64,000 bases of DNA from the NCBI RefSeq assembly GCF_000993785.3, contig NZ_CP009922.3:5518001-5582000 (forward strand). The letters run 5' to 3'. Positions within the stretch are counted from its first letter, which is position 1, and every line of letters begins with the position of its first letter. The position numbers and the translations under genes are program-made. The notes under the pieces are model-generated. The model was not told the DNA's origin. It ran no database searches and worked only from the letters and a program-made list of their open reading frames with translations. This DNA is from Streptomyces xiamenensis (lineage in GTDB: Bacteria > Actinomycetota > Actinomycetes > Streptomycetales > Streptomycetaceae). Below, one piece after another: positions 3,390-14,218 of this stretch.

Positions 3390-4188
3390 CGACGGGTTCC
3401 CGGCGGCCGGGCGGCGGGGCGTGGGTCAGCTCCACACCGAAGTACGTGCGGTAGGCGGCGAGCACGGCCGCCTCGTCGGGCAGTTCCTCCGTTCGCCTGC
3501 CGAGGTGGTCGGTGAGGGTCAGCCGGTCGCCGCTGAGGGTGACGCGGCCGTCCGCCGTGCGCAGGGAGCACATCGGCGCGCGGGTGAAGTCGGAGTCGGG
3601 GGAGGTGCGCTGCCACCAGCAGGCCATCTCGAAATCGGTCAGCGTCCGTGGCCTCGGCTCCAGCCGGTAGTGGGGTTCACCGTCCCGGTAGAGGTCCAGA
3701 TCGCCGTCCTGGGCCTCCCGGAGCTGGAAGACGCCGCCCGGGTCGTGCTGTTCGGAGCGGTCCTCCAGACTCAGCGGGAAGTCGGCGAACCGGGCGGCGC
3801 CGACATCCACCAGCAGCGGCCGGTCCGTGTCCACGCGCAGGGCGAGATGGTCCAGCGGCGGCCCGAACCCCGCCTTTCCGTGGATCCGCGCGGCCAGCAG
3901 GGTCACCCGGTATCCGAGGGCGGTGAGCAGCGCGGCGAAGGCGCCGTTCAACTCGTAGCAGAAGCCGCCCCGGCGCCGGTCCACCACCTTGGCCACCAGC
4001 GCCTCGGGGTCCAGCCGGATGTCCTCGCCGAGGTGGATGCTCAGGTTCTCGAAGGGCACGGTCCGCTGGTGCTCGCGGTGCAGGAGGTTCAGCCGTTCCT
4101 CGTCGGGCGGGCCGCCACCGGGCAGACCGATGCGTTCGAGGTAGGCGGCGACGCGGGTCGCGTCCAGGAAGTCGGTGTTCATGATCAC
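3352..4188 (-). CDS. nat: arylamine N-acetyltransferase
   Basis: A 278-residue acetyl-CoA dependent enzyme that acetylates arylamines, hydrazines or related amine starter units. The catalytic triad is complete: Cys77 in RRGGFCYELNG, His114 in PLDHLAL and Asp128 in LLVDVG (numbered from the ATG at 4188; an alternative ATG two codons later, MNTDF, is equally plausible). The length is that of bacterial NATs. Its 3' end overlaps the DUF4032 gene tail to tail. The neighbouring polylysine-synthetase-like gene is on the same strand upstream but is separated by a strong hairpin, so co-transcription is unlikely. In actinomycetes some NAT homologues act as amide synthases in secondary metabolism; nothing here points that way. 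Confidence 0.93.
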   Translation of the reverse strand: MIMNTDFLDATRVAAYLERIGLPGGGPPDEERLNLLHREHQRTVPFENLSIHLGEDIRLDPEALVAKVVDRRRGGFCYELNGAFAALLTALGYRVTLLAARIHGKAGFGPPLDHLALRVDTDRPLLVDVGAARFADFPLSLEDRSEQHDPGGVFQLREAQDGDLDLYRDGEPHYRLEPRPRTLTDFEMACWWQRTSPDSDFTRAPMCSLRTADGRVTLSGDRLTLTDHLGRRTEELPDEAAVLAAYRTYFGVELTHAPPPGRREPVVSAPAPLPPVRR

Positions 4189-4324
4189 CGTTATGTCATC
4201 CGGTCCACCGGCCCGTCATCGGTCCGGGGCCCCATATCCCGGGGACGAGGCCCTACATCCGGTGGCCGGGCCACCGGGCCGGTGGGACCGGGACCCGCCC
4301 CCGCCATCCGCGCGGTGGCGCAGG

Positions 4325-4357
4325 TCCGGGGCCCGCGGTGCCCGCGCGGGCCCCGGA
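4325..4357. terminator. strong hairpin terminator after the Pls-like gene
   Basis: TCCGGGGCCCGCG and CGCGGGCCCCGGA form a perfect 13-bp stem with a 7-base loop, 11 bases beyond the stop codon of the leftward NRPS-like gene. It separates that gene from the downstream nat gene. Confidence 0.7.
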
Positions 4358-4368
4358 TCGTACGGCGC

Positions 4369-7300
4369 TCAGCCGGCGGGCACCGGCCGTACCGGGTTGC
4401 CCTGCCAGCGCCCGTCGCCGGGCAGCCGCTCGGCCGCCATCAGCAGCGACCCGGCGCCCACCGAGGTACCCGCGCCGACCTCGCTGCCGGGCAGCGTGAT
4501 GCTGTGCGGTCCCACCGTCGCGGACCCGCCCACCACCACCGGCTCCAGACGCATGACGCGGTCGTGGAACAGGTGCGTCTGCAGCACGCAGCCCCGGTTC
4601 ACGGCCGCCCCGGCGCCCAGCCGCACCAGGTCCGGCTCCGGCAGCCAGTGCGACTCGCACCACACACCGCGTCCCACCCGCACCCCCAGGCTGCGCAGCC
4701 ACCAGTTCAGCAACGGCGTCCCGGTCGCGGGCTGCACCATCCACGGCACGGCGAGCACCTCCACGAAGCAGTCGTACAGCTCGTTGCGCCACACGAACGG
4801 GCTCCACAGCGGGTGCCGGCCCGGCCGGAACCGCCCCATCAGCACCCACTTGGCGGCGGTCGTCAGGGCTCCGGCCGCCAGCCCGGCCGCCCACAGCAGC
4901 GGCCCGCACACCACCGGCAGCAGCCACGTGGGGCCCGCGCTCCACACCAGCAGCAGCACCGCCAGCGTCGCCAGCCGCAACAGCCCCGCCAGCAGGAGCG
5001 GTACGGCCCGGCACAGTTCGACGGCGGCCCGCGCCGCGTACAGCGCGGGCGGCGGCGCGTAGGTGCGCGCCACATCGTGCGTCTCGGCCACCCGGCGCAG
5101 CCGCATCGCCGGATTGCCCAGCCACGAGGAGCCGGCGGGTACCCGCTCCGGAGTGTCCGTCAGCACCCCGACCAGTGCCCCGTCGCCGACCCGCCGGCCC
5201 GGGCCCACCAGACCGGAGTTGCCGACGAAGGCCCGCTCACCCACCCGGCTGATCCCCAGCCGCAGCCAGCCGCCGCGCAGTTCGTACGGTGCAGCCAGCA
5301 CCTGGTCGGCCAGGAACGCCCCGTCCCGCACCCGCAGCAGCCGTGGCAGCGCCAGCACGGTGGACGCCTCGACGCACCGCCCGATCCGCGCTCCCTGCAT
5401 CCGCAGCCACAGCGGGGTGAACAGCGAGGCGTACAGCGGGAACAGCGTGCGCCGCGAGGTGTCCATCAGATCGTGCACCAGCCAGGCGGCCCACGCCGGC
5501 AGGCTGTCCACCCGGTGCACCCCCGGACGCAGCGACCGGCCCGCCAGCCGCACGGCCAGGGTGAGGAACAGCGCGTGGCACACCATGCCCAGCACCACCA
5601 GCACCGGCAGCCGCAGCGTCAGTTCGGCGGTGCCACCGGTGGACGGCAGCGCGTGGGCCAGTACCAGCGAGGGCACCCAGGCCACCCACAGCAGCAGCGC
5701 CCGCAGCGCCGGGGTGAGCGCGTACCCCAGTGCCCAGCCGCGTGAGCGGGTGCCGCGGGCGGCGGGCCAGGTGTACTCGGCCGGCTGTCGTACGGCGGGG
5801 GAGCCGCCCCAGCACTCACCGGCCGGGACCCGCGCGGCCAGGCTGCCGCCGGGCAGCACCTCGGCGCCCGCCCCCACCTCGGCGCCGGGCAGCAGGGTGA
5901 CGCGGGCGCCCACCCGTGCGCCGGCCCCGACGGCGACGGGCCCGATCCGTACCACCTCACCGTCCAGCCACCAGCCGGCCAGATCGGCCTCGGGCTCCAC
6001 GGCGCAGCCGTCGCCGAAGGTGCCGAGCCCGGTGACCGGCGGCAGCGCCCGCAGATCCACCCGCTGCCCGACCCGGCAGCCCAGCAGCCGCGCGTACCAC
6101 ACGACGAGCGGAGTGCCGGTGATGGTGGTCAGGCCCAGCGCGGTGACCAGCCGTTCCGCCGCCCACAGCCGCAGGTGGGCGCCGCCGCCGCGCGGCAGTT
6201 CACCGGGGGTCAGCCGGGTGCCGCGCAGCAGCCGTACCCCGCCCGCCGCCAGCAGCACCTTGCCGGGCAGGGTGAACAGCAGGGCGTAGCCCGGGATCAG
6301 CAGCCACCAGGGCAGGGTGGGCAGCCAGCCCTGGTAGCCGGCGGCCGTCAGGGCGGTGCCGGCCAGCGCGATCGCCAGCAGCCAGCGCAGCCCGGCCACG
6401 GCGTGCAGCAGTGGCTGGGCGGCGAGTTGGAGGCAGCCGGTCCACCACGGGGTGCGGGGCGGGGCGGCCGCGGGCGCCGGGCCGGTGGCGGATGGTGGCT
6501 GCGGTGCCCGTGGTGCCGGGGGCGCGGGGGGTTTCTCGGTGAGCAGCGTGCGCAGTGCGCCGGGGGTGGGGTGCCGGTAGAGGTCGGCGACGGAGATGTG
6601 GGGGTGGTGCTCGCGCAGGGCGGAGATCAGCCGGGCGGCGGCCAGGGAGGTGCCGCCCTGGTCGAAGAAGTCGTCCTCGGGGCCGGCCTGAACGCCCAGC
6701 AGGTCGCTCCACAGGCCGAGCAGCCGGTGGGTGACGGGGTCGGTGTGCCCGGCCCCGGCCCCGGCCCCGGCCCCGGGCTCGTGCCCGGGGCCGGGCACAC
6801 CGGCGGGCAGCGGCCAGGGCAGGGCGGCGCGGTCCACCTTGCCCGAGGACTTGAGCGGGAAGCAGGGCAGTACGGCGAGCCGGGGGACCAGGGCGGCGGG
6901 CAGCGTCTCCCGCAGCCGCCGCAGCGCGTCCGCGCGGTCGAAGCGCCCCGGGTCGCCGTGGGAGGGCACCAGATAGCCGACCAGGACATCGAGGCCGCCG
7001 GGGGTGCGGCGCACCGTCGCGGCGGCGGCGGAGACCTGCGGCAGGGCGAGCAGGGCGGCGTCGATCTCGCCGAGTTCGACCCGGCGGCCGCCGATCTTGA
7101 TCTGGTCGTCCGCCCGGCCGGTGAACTCCAGGCCCTCGGGGGTGGCGCGGACCAGGTCGCCGCTGCGGTAGGCGCGCTGCCAGCCCAGTGCGGGCAGCGG
7201 CGCGAACCGTTCGGCGTCCTTGTCGGTGTCGAGGTAGCGGCCGAGGCCCACGCCGCCGATGACCAGTTCGCCGCTCTCCCCGCAGGGCACGGGAACGCCG

Positions 7301-8346
7301 TCCCGGTCGGTGACCGCCAGTTCCCAGCCGTTCAGGGGCAGTCCGATGCGCACCGGCTCGCCGTCGTGCAGCTGGGCGGCGCAGGCCACCACGGTGGCCT
7401 CGGTGGGGCCGTAGGTGTTCCACACCTCGCGCCCGTCGCGGGCGAAGCGGCGCACCACCTCGGGCGGGCACGCCTCTCCGCCGACGATCAGCAGCCGCAC
7501 CCCGGCGAGCATGTCGGCCGACCACAGGGCCGCCAGGGAGGGCACCGTGGAGACGACAGTGATCCGCCGCTCGCCCAGCCAGGGGCCGAGTTCGGCGCCG
7601 GTGCGCACCAGTGCGCGGGGGGCGGGCACCAGGGCGGCGCCGTGCCGCCAGGCCAGCCACATCTCCTCGCACGAGGCGTCGAAGCCGACCGAGAGCCCGG
7701 CCAGTACCCGGTCGCCGGGGCCGATGGGGGCGTCGGGCACGAACAGCGCGGCCTCGGCGTCGGCGAAGGCGGCGGCCGAACGGTGGGTGATGGCCACCCC
7801 CTTGGGCTTTCCGGTGGAGCCCGAGGTGAAGATGATCCAGGCGTCGTCCGCCGGTTCGGGTGCGCGCGGCAGTCCGCCGGGCGGGGTGCCGGGCACGGCG
7901 GCCGCCCGCCCGCCCGGGCCGAGCACGGCGCACACCCCGGCCTCGCGCCATACCAGTTCGGCCCGTTCCGCCGGATCCTCGGCGTCCACCGGCACATAGG
8001 CGGCGCCGGCGGTCAGGACGCCGAGCACTCCGATGTACAGGTCGGCGCCGCCGGAGGGGATGCGTACCCCCACCCGGTCCCCGGCCCCGACCCCGGCCCG
8101 GTGCAGCCGCCGGGCCACCTCGGTCACGCGGCGGTCGAGGTCCCGGTAGCTGAGCGGTTCGCCGCCGTCGTCGAGGGCGATGGCCTCGGGCCACCGGGTC
8201 ACGGACTCCCGCAGCACGTCGAGCAGGGTGCGTTCCCGTGCGGGGGGAGCCGACCGGTACACGGCCGGTTCCCCGGGAGTCAGGTGGACTCCCCGTTCCT
8301 TACTGAAAAGTCCGATGTTCTTACCGGAGATTTTCGCCGACACCAT
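4369..8346 (-). CDS. Pls/PosA-type polymer-forming NRPS (epsilon-polylysine synthetase-like)
   Basis: A 1325-residue membrane NRPS with the architecture of epsilon-poly-L-lysine synthetase (Pls, about 1319 residues). It has an adenylation domain (about 30-530) with IIFTSGSTGKPKG, NTYGPTEAT and YRSGDL, then a carrier domain (FFDQGGTSLAAA, Ser for phosphopantetheine). The remaining half has three repeats of a pair of hydrophobic membrane segments followed by a left-handed beta-helix, acyltransferase-like module. Such modules join monomers iteratively without a normal C or TE domain. My hand alignment of the pocket gives DAESIGTVVK, close to the lysine code I remember (DAESIGSVAK), so a basic amino acid, most simply Lys, is expected. 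A short Gly-Ala linker joins the halves. The gene is monocistronic, with an AT-rich upstream region and GGAAAGGG before the ATG. No polylysine-degrading gene is adjacent. Confidence 0.88.
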   Translation of the reverse strand: MVSAKISGKNIGLFSKERGVHLTPGEPAVYRSAPPARERTLLDVLRESVTRWPEAIALDDGGEPLSYRDLDRRVTEVARRLHRAGVGAGDRVGVRIPSGGADLYIGVLGVLTAGAAYVPVDAEDPAERAELVWREAGVCAVLGPGGRAAAVPGTPPGGLPRAPEPADDAWIIFTSGSTGKPKGVAITHRSAAAFADAEAALFVPDAPIGPGDRVLAGLSVGFDASCEEMWLAWRHGAALVPAPRALVRTGAELGPWLGERRITVVSTVPSLAALWSADMLAGVRLLIVGGEACPPEVVRRFARDGREVWNTYGPTEATVVACAAQLHDGEPVRIGLPLNGWELAVTDRDGVPVPCGESGELVIGGVGLGRYLDTDKDAERFAPLPALGWQRAYRSGDLVRATPEGLEFTGRADDQIKIGGRRVELGEIDAALLALPQVSAAAATVRRTPGGLDVLVGYLVPSHGDPGRFDRADALRRLRETLPAALVPRLAVLPCFPLKSSGKVDRAALPWPLPAGVPGPGHEPGAGAGAGAGHTDPVTHRLLGLWSDLLGVQAGPEDDFFDQGGTSLAAARLISALREHHPHISVADLYRHPTPGALRTLLTEKPPAPPAPRAPQPPSATGPAPAAAPPRTPWWTGCLQLAAQPLLHAVAGLRWLLAIALAGTALTAAGYQGWLPTLPWWLLIPGYALLFTLPGKVLLAAGGVRLLRGTRLTPGELPRGGGAHLRLWAAERLVTALGLTTITGTPLVVWYARLLGCRVGQRVDLRALPPVTGLGTFGDGCAVEPEADLAGWWLDGEVVRIGPVAVGAGARVGARVTLLPGAEVGAGAEVLPGGSLAARVPAGECWGGSPAVRQPAEYTWPAARGTRSRGWALGYALTPALRALLLWVAWVPSLVLAHALPSTGGTAELTLRLPVLVVLGMVCHALFLTLAVRLAGRSLRPGVHRVDSLPAWAAWLVHDLMDTSRRTLFPLYASLFTPLWLRMQGARIGRCVEASTVLALPRLLRVRDGAFLADQVLAAPYELRGGWLRLGISRVGERAFVGNSGLVGPGRRVGDGALVGVLTDTPERVPAGSSWLGNPAMRLRRVAETHDVARTYAPPPALYAARAAVELCRAVPLLLAGLLRLATLAVLLLVWSAGPTWLLPVVCGPLLWAAGLAAGALTTAAKWVLMGRFRPGRHPLWSPFVWRNELYDCFVEVLAVPWMVQPATGTPLLNWWLRSLGVRVGRGVWCESHWLPEPDLVRLGAGAAVNRGCVLQTHLFHDRVMRLEPVVVGGSATVGPHSITLPGSEVGAGTSVGAGSLLMAAERLPGDGRWQGNPVRPVPAG
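6751..6774. repeat. short hexanucleotide tandem repeat in the Pls-like gene
   Basis: Four copies of GGCCCC, coding for an alternating Gly-Ala linker after the adenylation domain. It is flanked by the inverted arms GTGCCCGGCCCC (6745-6756) and GGGGCCGGGCAC (6787-6798). It is probably a slippage-prone linker rather than a functional site. Confidence 0.6.
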
Positions 8347-8443
8347 TTGCCCTTTCCGTATCGCGGCCCCTGCCGGATTTCGACGGGATCAATCGAGAGC
8401 GGAGTGAGGGAAACATTAGGCATCGGACTCTTTGATTCCACTG

Positions 8444-8464
8444 AGGGAATTCTTTAATTTCCCT
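8444..8464. promoter_or_regulatory. AT-rich inverted repeat between ramB end and pls-like start
   Basis: AGGGAA and TTCCCT are separated by 9 AT-rich bases, inside a 190-base intergenic stretch (8347-8536) that is much more AT-rich than its surroundings. It lies about 100 bases upstream of the Pls-like gene and about 75 bases after the ramB-like stop. It could be an operator for the former or a weak terminator for the latter; the sequence does not decide. Confidence 0.3.
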
Positions 8465-8536
8465 GAGAGGATCCCTTTTGGGGTATGTATTCGCCTGTCG
8501 AATATGCGTTTATCCATGGGCTTGTATGAATGGCCG

Positions 8537-9946
8537 TCACGTCCCGGGCTGTTCCGCCACCGGATAGGGAACAAAGGTGCTGCTGTTCTCGTCGAAGGCC
8601 AGCCGCTGCCCCAGCGGCGGCACCGCCCGCTGGGGACAGTCCAGCCGTTCGCAGATCCGGCAGCCCATGCCCACCGGGGTCGCCGCGGCCCGGTGCGACA
8701 GATCGAGACCGTCGGAGTACACCAGCCGCCCGGCATGGCGCAGTTCGCAGCCCAGGCCGATGGCGAACGTCTTGCGCGGCTCTCCCCAGCCGCCCTGGTG
8801 CCGGGTCACCGTGCGGGCCGTCCACAGATAGCGGCGGCCGTCCGGCATCGCGGCGATCTGCACATGGATCCGGCCCGGCGCCGCGAACGCCTCGTACACG
8901 TTCCACAGCGGGCAGGTGCCGCCCGCGCGCGAGAAGTGAAAGCCGGTGGCCGACTGGCGCTTGGACATGTTCCCGGCCCGGTCCACCCGCACGAAGGAGA
9001 ACGGCACACCCCGCAGGCGCGGCCGCTGCAAGGTGCTCAGCCGGTGGCACACCGTCTCGTAGCCCAGACCGAACCGGTCCGTCAGCCGCTCGATGTCGTA
9101 CCGCAGCTCCTGCGCCGCGCCGTGGAAGACCCCGTACGGCAGCAGCAGCGCCGCCGCGACATAGTGCGCCACCCCGATCCTGGCCAGTGCCCAGGCGTCG
9201 GTGTCCGCCGCGAAATCCTGCGCCGCCAGCGCGGACAGCTCCTCGGCGTACTCCAGCAGAGCCACCTGCGTCGCCATCCGGAACGCCCGCTGTCCCGGGC
9301 GCAGCCGCCCGGACAGCCGCAGTTCGCGCCGGGCGGGATCGTAGCGGTGCAGCACCTCGCAGCCGTCCGCCAGTCGCACCCCGTGCCGCTCCTCCAGGCG
9401 CGCCGCCAGTGCCGGCAGCGCCTCCCCGGGCCCGATGCCCAGCGAACGGGCCAACTGCTCGGCGGCCACATCCAGATCGTGCAGATAGTTCTGCCGCCGG
9501 TAGAAGAACTCCCGGATCTCCTCGTGCGGGGACCGCGGCCCGGCGGGGGCCACCCCGGCGCGGCCCCCGGACAGCTCCGCCAGCCGCTCGGTCAGCGCCG
9601 CGTTGCGCCGCCCGTACTCCACGAGCGTCCCCGCCAGCTCCGGCTGCTCCTGTGCGAGGCGGGCCAGGTCCGCGGCGCGCACCCGGCCCGCGCTCACCTC
9701 CTCGGCCAGCGCCTCGGTCAGGTCCGCGAGCAGCCGGGCGCTCTCGCGCCGCGAGAAGAAGCCGGGGTCAACGCCGAACGCCTCGGTCAGCCGCAGCAGT
9801 ACCGGGACGGTCAGCGGCCGGGCGTCGTGTTCCATCTGGTTGAGATAGCTCGGGGAGATCGACAGGACGCGGGCCAGTCCGGCCTGTGACAGGCCGCGTT
9901 CCTGCCGCAGCAGCCGCAGTCGCGCACCGGCGTAGACCTTGGTCAT
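8537..9946 (-). CDS. ramB: RamB/ScfR-family transcriptional regulator
   Basis: A 469-residue cytoplasmic DNA-binding protein. Residues about 5-60 form an XRE-type helix-turn-helix (RLLRQERGLSQAGLARVL, ISPSYLNQME). The long remainder matches the short-chain fatty acyl transcriptional regulator family: an IrrE/peptidase-like middle part and a C-terminal Cys-containing region (GMGCRICERLDCPQRAVPP) whose spaced cysteines may bind a metal. In corynebacteria RamB controls glyoxylate-cycle genes, including aceA. Here the gene is divergent from isocitrate lyase across a 330-base intergenic region, so control of aceA and of itself is the natural inference. The family-typical start is MTKVYAGARLRLLR at 9946. 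Confidence 0.9.
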   Translation of the reverse strand: MTKVYAGARLRLLRQERGLSQAGLARVLSISPSYLNQMEHDARPLTVPVLLRLTEAFGVDPGFFSRRESARLLADLTEALAEEVSAGRVRAADLARLAQEQPELAGTLVEYGRRNAALTERLAELSGGRAGVAPAGPRSPHEEIREFFYRRQNYLHDLDVAAEQLARSLGIGPGEALPALAARLEERHGVRLADGCEVLHRYDPARRELRLSGRLRPGQRAFRMATQVALLEYAEELSALAAQDFAADTDAWALARIGVAHYVAAALLLPYGVFHGAAQELRYDIERLTDRFGLGYETVCHRLSTLQRPRLRGVPFSFVRVDRAGNMSKRQSATGFHFSRAGGTCPLWNVYEAFAAPGRIHVQIAAMPDGRRYLWTARTVTRHQGGWGEPRKTFAIGLGCELRHAGRLVYSDGLDLSHRAAATPVGMGCRICERLDCPQRAVPPLGQRLAFDENSSTFVPYPVAEQPGT

Positions 9947-10276: not shown

Positions 10277-11566
10277 ATGACACACCCACCGCACACCGGC
10301 ACCACAGCCCGCGAACTGGCCCGCCACTGGGCCACCGACCCACGCTGGCGGGGTATCGAACGCACCTACACCGCCGAGGACGTGATCCGGCTCTCCGGCT
10401 CGGTCCGCGAGGAGCACACCCTCGCCCGGCGCGGCGCGGACCGGCTGTGGCACGCCCTGCACGACCACGACTATCTGCACGCCCTGGGTGCCCTCACCGG
10501 CGGACAGGCCGTCCAGATGGTCAAGGCCGGGCTCAAGGCGGTGTACCTGTCGGGCTGGCAGGTCGCCGCCGACGCCAACCAGGCCGGCCACACCTACCCC
10601 GACCAGAGCCTGTACCCCGTCAACTCGGTGCCCGCCGTGGTGCGCCGGATCAACAACGCGCTGCTGCGCGCCGATCAGATCGCCACCGCCGAGGGCGCGG
10701 GGGACCGCACCGACTGGCTGGTGCCCATCGTCGCCGACGCCGAGGCCGGCTTCGGCGGACCGCTCAACGCCTTCGAACTCACCAAGGCGCTCATCGAGGC
10801 CGGCGCGGCGGGCATCCACTACGAGGACCAGCTGGCCAGCGAGAAGAAGTGCGGCCACCTCGGCGGCAAGGTCCTGGTGCCCACCTCGGCACACATCCGC
10901 ACCCTCAACGCCGCCCGCCTCGCCGCCGACATCGCCGGGGTGCCCACCCTCGTGGTCGCCCGCACCGACGCGCTGGCCGCCAGCCTCATCACCAGCGACA
11001 CCGATGAGCGCGACGCCCGGTTCTGCACCGGGGAGCGCACCCCCGAGGGCTTCCACCGGGTGCGCCCGGGCATGGCGTCGGCCATCGCGCGCGGCCTCGC
11101 CTACGCCCCGTACGCCGATCTGCTGTGGATGGAGACCGGCACCCCCGACCTCGGCCAGGCCCGGGAGTTCGCCGAGGCGGTCCACGCCCGGTACCCCGAC
11201 CGGATGCTCGCCTACAACTGCTCCCCCTCCTTCAACTGGCGGGCGACACTGGACGAGGACCAGATAGCCAAGTTCCAGCGCGAACTGGGCGCGATGGGCT
11301 ATCGCTTCCAGTTCATCACCCTGGCCGGCTTCCATTCCCTCAACCACGCGATGTTCGACCTGGCCCAGCGCTACGCCGAGCACGGCATGACGGCCTATGT
11401 GGACCTCCAGGAGCGGGAGTTCGCCGCACAGCGGCGCGGCTTCACCGCCGTGCGCCACCAGCGCGAAGTGGGCACCGGCTACTTCGACCAGGTGGCCACC
11501 GCCCTCAACCCCGCCTCCGAGACCACGGCACTGCGCGGCTCCACCGAGGAGGAGCAGTTCCACTGA
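10277..11566 (+). CDS. aceA: isocitrate lyase
   Basis: A 429-residue enzyme that splits isocitrate to succinate and glyoxylate in the glyoxylate shunt, used for growth on acetate, fatty acids or C2 units. The catalytic loop KKCGH is present with Cys192. Other family segments are VDAEAGFGG-like [25 protein letters not shown], and YNCSPSFNW near the C terminus. The length is normal for the actinobacterial short form. The ATG at 10277 starts [10 protein letters not shown] just before the conserved HWATDPRW region; upstream translation in frame is not family-like. It stands alone (no malate synthase nearby), divergent from ramB and convergent with the geosmin synthase gene. Confidence 0.96.

Positions 11567-11641: not shown

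Positions 11642-14218
<2,577 letters not shown>

Follow-up and report, generated by a model that had tools for sequence, protein, structure and literature searches.

In the characterised members of the Pls/PosA family, an adenylation (A) domain makes the aminoacyl-AMP, a carrier (T) domain takes up the activated amino acid and a membrane domain condenses the residues via the side-chain amine. For the solved A domain of the epsilon-polylysine synthetase Pls of Streptomyces albulus (7WEW), PMC11253843 describes how Lys-AMP is held by D213, E217, S256, T301 and K495. According to PMC10522769, the second position of the pocket code tracks the length of the monomer side chain, with Ala corresponding to Lys, Met to Orn and Phe to Dap/Dab, and a nearly ten-fold rise in lysine activation followed when this Met of PosA was exchanged for Ala.

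The window analysed here is a stretch of 64,000 nucleotides from Streptomyces xiamenensis (contig NZ_CP009922.3), whose base 1 is genome position 5,518,001. At about 5.52 of the 5.96 Mb of the genome it holds an ORF that very probably encodes an epsilon-poly-L-lysine synthetase (Pls), with the following features:

4369..8346, minus strand: Pls-type synthetase CDS, 1325 aa, A-T-[TM pair-beta-helix]x3 (ORF list, Pfam, NCBIfam, AlphaFold2)
8351..8357, minus strand: ribosome-binding-like GGAAAGG, 4 nt 5' of the pls ATG (read from the sequence)
6802..8235, minus strand: A domain, residues 38-515, 67% identical to S. albulus Pls 7WEW (phmmer, alignment)
7387..7680, minus strand: nine of the ten pocket residues, D223, A224, E227, S266, I287, G289, T311, V319 and V320 (alignment to 7WEW)
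6838..6840, minus strand: K503, the tenth code residue and catalytic lysine (alignment to 7WEW)
6553..6726, minus strand: T domain, residues 541-598, with the phosphopantetheine serine S567 in GGTSL (Pfam, alignment)
5782..6447, minus strand: repeat 1 of the membrane polymerisation domain, residues 634-855, a helix pair and a beta-helix (AlphaFold2)
5098..5742, minus strand: repeat 2 of the membrane polymerisation domain, residues 869-1083 (AlphaFold2)
4387..5049, minus strand: repeat 3, residues 1100-1320, carrying the family-invariant Q1256, H1258 and D1262 (AlphaFold2, alignment)

The ORF is complete from ATG to stop and occupies exactly 4369-8346 on the minus strand; an earlier note made from the DNA letters had given its position and description correctly, as the Pfam and NCBIfam domains also show. 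A scan of 4100-8700, which is weak evidence in this genus, found no sigma-70-like promoter. The pls product is the sole protein of the 5.96 Mb genome above the cut-off of TIGR02353, the 'Pls/PosA family' terminal domain, the second match in the genome being weak (29 bits).

The TIGR02353 match scores 603.6 bits (cut-off 423.1; NCBIfam) and joins residues 639-1319 to positions 2-695 of the 695 in the profile. Pfam matches are limited to AMP-binding (46-368), PP-binding (541-598) and the hexapeptide repeat, with no usual C or TE domain among them, and the carrier serine S567 is intact in the alignment. An AlphaFold2 model of residues 621-1325, built from an alignment of 74 sequences (S. xiamenensis Pls and 73 relatives chosen from 152), shows long helices followed by a beta-helix, repeated three times, with confidence high throughout (mean pLDDT 93.4, pTM 0.93); the boundaries of repeats 1-3 are our reading of its secondary structure. 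The protein has the Pls/PosA layout of A, T, three membrane-helix pairs and three acyltransferase-like modules (Pfam, AlphaFold2), and the proposal in the earlier note of an A and a T domain followed by three membrane pairs, each with a beta-helix, is borne out by Pfam, NCBIfam and AlphaFold2. The PosA domain is described with hexapeptide-acyltransferase-like beta-helices in PMC10522769, which agrees with this model. Among solved folds the C-terminal model comes closest to maltose and galactoside acetyltransferases, with Z no higher than 7.6; since this value is middling by the tool's own note, the matches are taken as a shared hexapeptide beta-helix and show no function. A PDB sequence search with the C-terminal part gave only weak hexapeptide-repeat matches (best E 1.4e-5) and no solved close relative.

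The evidence for lysine lies in the A domain. S. xiamenensis Pls matches 7WEW far beyond chance (phmmer, 658 bits, E 3e-196), and its code, DAESIGTVVK, is that of the S. albulus A domain at all ten residues. All five Lys-AMP contacts of 7WEW are identical as well, recurring in the same order as D223, E227, S266, T311 and K503. The code read by hand in the earlier note is correct, and the name of epsilon-polylysine synthetase and the lysine-type pocket that it had proposed stand on the agreement with 7WEW in code and contacts; its remark that one or two changes separate this code from that for lysine is wrong, the two being identical. Among the monomer types compared by code (Lys, Orn and Dap/Dab), Ala224 at code position 2 is of the lysine type, neither the Met of PosA nor the Phe of the PDAP/PDAB enzymes. 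Because its pocket is identical to that of the solved enzyme, S. xiamenensis Pls is a good example, though an ordinary one, of a family that is widespread.

In the mechanism that we propose, the A domain would activate L-lysine to lysyl-AMP, the alpha-amino group being bound by D223 and the epsilon-amino group by E227, S266 and T311; S567 of the carrier would then receive the lysine. For both of these steps the domains and active residues are intact. In the C-terminal membrane domain, predicted to be pseudo-three-fold with three beta-helix modules on six membrane helices, each lysine would be linked by its carboxyl to the epsilon-amine of the following one, and the epsilon-polylysine chain would be released. 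That condensation is iterative, that the linkage is epsilon, how long the chain is and that the gene is expressed are predictions drawn from characterised relatives, and the strain would presumably produce polylysine. According to PMC8117764, a confirmed Pls gene of Corynebacterium variabile yielded no product in its own host and did so only when it was driven in S. coelicolor by the pls promoter of S. albulus; the same paper states that S. coelicolor M145 has no pls. Like the C. variabile gene in its own host, S. xiamenensis pls may be silent. With this locus, a family that is known as widespread and is used for a food preservative would gain a further likely gene for epsilon-polylysine.

Relatives were taken from one genome-contig scan that gave 592 confirmed homologues, the best 80 of which form the locus set. 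These best 80 of 592 are 51-61% identical to S. xiamenensis Pls over the full alignment; 78 of them carry exactly DAESIGTVVK, and the remaining two differ only in having I instead of V as the ninth code residue. For 73 further rows the code is identical in 41, DFE-type in seven and incomplete in 25, where the A domain is absent or the sequence cut. Genes of the Pls/PosA family are common in the genus, with a TIGR02353 match over the cut-off in 172 of its 295 genomes, lysine-type and other members counted together. Also found in the genus were many ORFs of about 850-1000 aa (L083, L109, L126 and similar loci) that match the whole TIGR02353 profile and have no A-domain code; such A-less membrane proteins would have to obtain their amino acid from elsewhere.

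In a quick maximum-likelihood tree of 111 A domains (130 rows less 19 near-duplicates), the 104 DAE rows, S. xiamenensis Pls and 7WEW included, are split with full support from seven DFE rows, the outgroup, which are counted as Dap/Dab-type by their code only. Clustering with enzymes for other monomers, which the earlier note had named as the test of its proposal, is thus not seen in this tree. The partners of S. xiamenensis Pls in this tree, with support 93, are the Amycolatopsis sequences L003, L004 and L006, but its own branch is long, and because of this its exact sister is unsure; no starred set of half the rows or fewer contains it. Its TIGR02353 score in the genome-wide comparison (606 bits) lies below those of two rows that group with S. 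albulus Pls (672 and 679 bits).

Upstream of pls the window contains:

8540-9946, minus strand: ramB-like regulator, divergent from isocitrate lyase
10280-11563, plus strand: isocitrate lyase, beyond ramB

Downstream lie an arylamine N-acetyltransferase, a DUF4032 protein and a 6-phosphogluconate dehydrogenase (Gnd) (Pfam, NCBIfam). These neighbours were considered as a biosynthetic cluster and rejected: when, for the 80 loci, all ORFs lying up to 4 kb from pls were grouped by fast blastp clustering, Gnd, DUF4032, arylamine N-acetyltransferase, RamB and isocitrate lyase were each without a homologue near pls (0 of 80) and are therefore not read as pathway partners. Isocitrate lyase and RamB are a conserved pair by themselves, adjoining in nine of 14 other RamB-family loci (13 other genomes and the own paralogue, L178, with loci reaching only about 1.5 kb beyond RamB), and arylamine N-acetyltransferase stands beside RamB in none of these 14. 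L178 is a second RamB paralogue in the S. xiamenensis genome. The surroundings of L146, a relative discussed below, differ, with catalase, transporter and regulator ORFs by our reading of the translations. Since none of these five neighbours of S. xiamenensis pls recurs and L146 is placed elsewhere, pls looks like a single-gene unit whose place varies.

Among the best 80 of 592, an M1 aminopeptidase-type peptidase ORF, taken as the PldII companion, closely follows pls in at least 42 loci, a minimum count, as the cluster did not take in several loci whose downstream ORF is of comparable size; the M1 reading comes from the aminopeptidase N matches of one cluster member and its HELAH motif. No PldII-type peptidase lies beside S. 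xiamenensis pls, and its genome holds no close PldII homologue, the best match reaching 63 bits with 30% identity over a part; three matches of this search look like general aminopeptidases.

Two further regions of the window are recorded here as separate observations. A two-domain terpene cyclase of 774 aa (11645-13966, minus strand) scores 1192.2 bits against NF041168 (family 2 encapsulin cargo terpene cyclase), just below the cut-off of 1200, and presumably resembles geosmin synthase. A large NRPS locus (41944-63997, minus strand) encodes an AMP-binding protein, a C-A-T protein, a carbamoyltransferase and an ORF of 5115 aa with three AMP-binding and three condensation stretches within its first 3000 aa.

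The C-terminal domain is somewhat divergent. Of the 409 columns whose conservation in the whole protein (A and C-terminal domains together) is 95% or higher, S. xiamenensis Pls departs from 24, against a median of seven and a highest value of 38. Its departures include Q984, in place of an otherwise invariant Leu, S1275, in place of a nearly invariant Gly, and the following two sites, for which the counts refer to the 121 lysine-type relatives with both of them:

6049..6051, minus strand: R766; His in 118/121 and Asp in 3/121 lysine-type relatives (alignment)
5302..5304, minus strand: Q1015; Asp in 118/121 and His in 3/121 lysine-type relatives (alignment)

The reversed pair, Asp766 and His1015 in S. 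xiamenensis numbering, occurs in three pls homologues of Micrococcaceae (L058, L072 and L076), and this reciprocal swap suggests that residues 766 and 1015 touch across membrane modules 1 and 2; as the three rows are close kin, the swap may be a single event. The nearest C-terminal domain, that of L146 (68-69% identical; its contig ends before the A domain), has His766 and Gln1015. A reading of R766/Q1015 as the loss of a family-wide catalytic dyad was rejected, as DFE-type and A-less members are also without those residues. It is conceivable, though improbable, that S. xiamenensis Pls and L146 form a small branch of lysine-activating synthetases in which membrane modules 1 and 2 have lost an otherwise fixed, reciprocally swappable His-Asp contact. 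If this were so, and if chain length or the handling of the growing amine depends on the pair, the lysine polymer of this branch would be unusual in length or linkage, and the branch would reveal the residues that govern these properties. The special value of the locus is comparative only: the H766/D1015 pair points to a direct contact between the first two membrane modules, and to sites to mutate, in a domain for which the PDB searches gave no solved close relative.

Lysine might be activated while the diverged C-terminal domain makes a short oligolysine or chains of another length range, transfers lysyl residues elsewhere or is inactive. The change of both members of the swapped pair, the altered L984 and G1275, the Gln1015 common to L146 and the lack of PldII would all fit this; yet we consider it unlikely, as seven other relatives deviate at more conserved columns, up to 38, the AlphaFold2 model is confident throughout and the columns invariant over 74 diverse C-terminal domains, Q1256, H1258 and D1262 among them, are kept, albeit by definition, since S. 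xiamenensis Pls is one of the 74. If the monomer of the homopolymer were instead ornithine, diaminobutyrate, diaminopropionate or beta-lysine, the synthetase would have the same architecture, and pocket predictions from sequence can fail; nevertheless, with Ala at code position 2 and neither the Met of ornithine nor the Phe of Dap/Dab enzymes, every Lys-AMP contact kept, the alpha-amino anchor D223 present and the DFE rows apart in the tree, such an enzyme is very unlikely. An epsilon-poly-L-lysine synthetase is the reading that we retain in comparing the locus with described systems.

The closest of these is S. albulus Pls, with which S. xiamenensis Pls shares the ten-residue code, 67% A-domain identity, the five Lys-AMP contacts and the A-T-(TM pair, beta-helix)x3 layout. 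PMC8117764 assigns Pls where identity reaches 40% or more across 80% of a confirmed enzyme; with relative L010 (92% A-domain identity to 7WEW) as a proxy for a confirmed full-length enzyme, identity is 57% over 1277 columns, and only 53% in the C-terminal domain. The S. xiamenensis gene differs from that of S. albulus in having other neighbours and no adjacent pldII, and its product has R766/Q1015 in place of His/Asp, so that, compared with a textbook Pls, the PldII-type peptidase is missing and the polymerising domain is somewhat divergent. Among the best 80 of 592, the closest named relatives are the Amycolatopsis Pls-like proteins L003, L004 and L006, about 60% identical over the full length and with the same code; unlike S. 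xiamenensis Pls they keep His766 and Asp1015, and they have Ala or Pro at 797. PosA, the delta-poly-L-ornithine synthetase of Acinetobacter baumannii, has the family and layout in common, whereas its code, as given in PMC10522769, is DMEHNGTVSK. Family and layout are also common to the beta-PDAP and gamma-PDAB synthetases (PMC8117764 and PMC10522769), which carry Phe at code position 2 (PMC10522769) where S. xiamenensis Pls has Ala, and the seven DFE-type rows of the genus, of the PDAP/PDAB kind by code only, share 41-46% A-domain and 27-35% C-terminal-domain identity with it.
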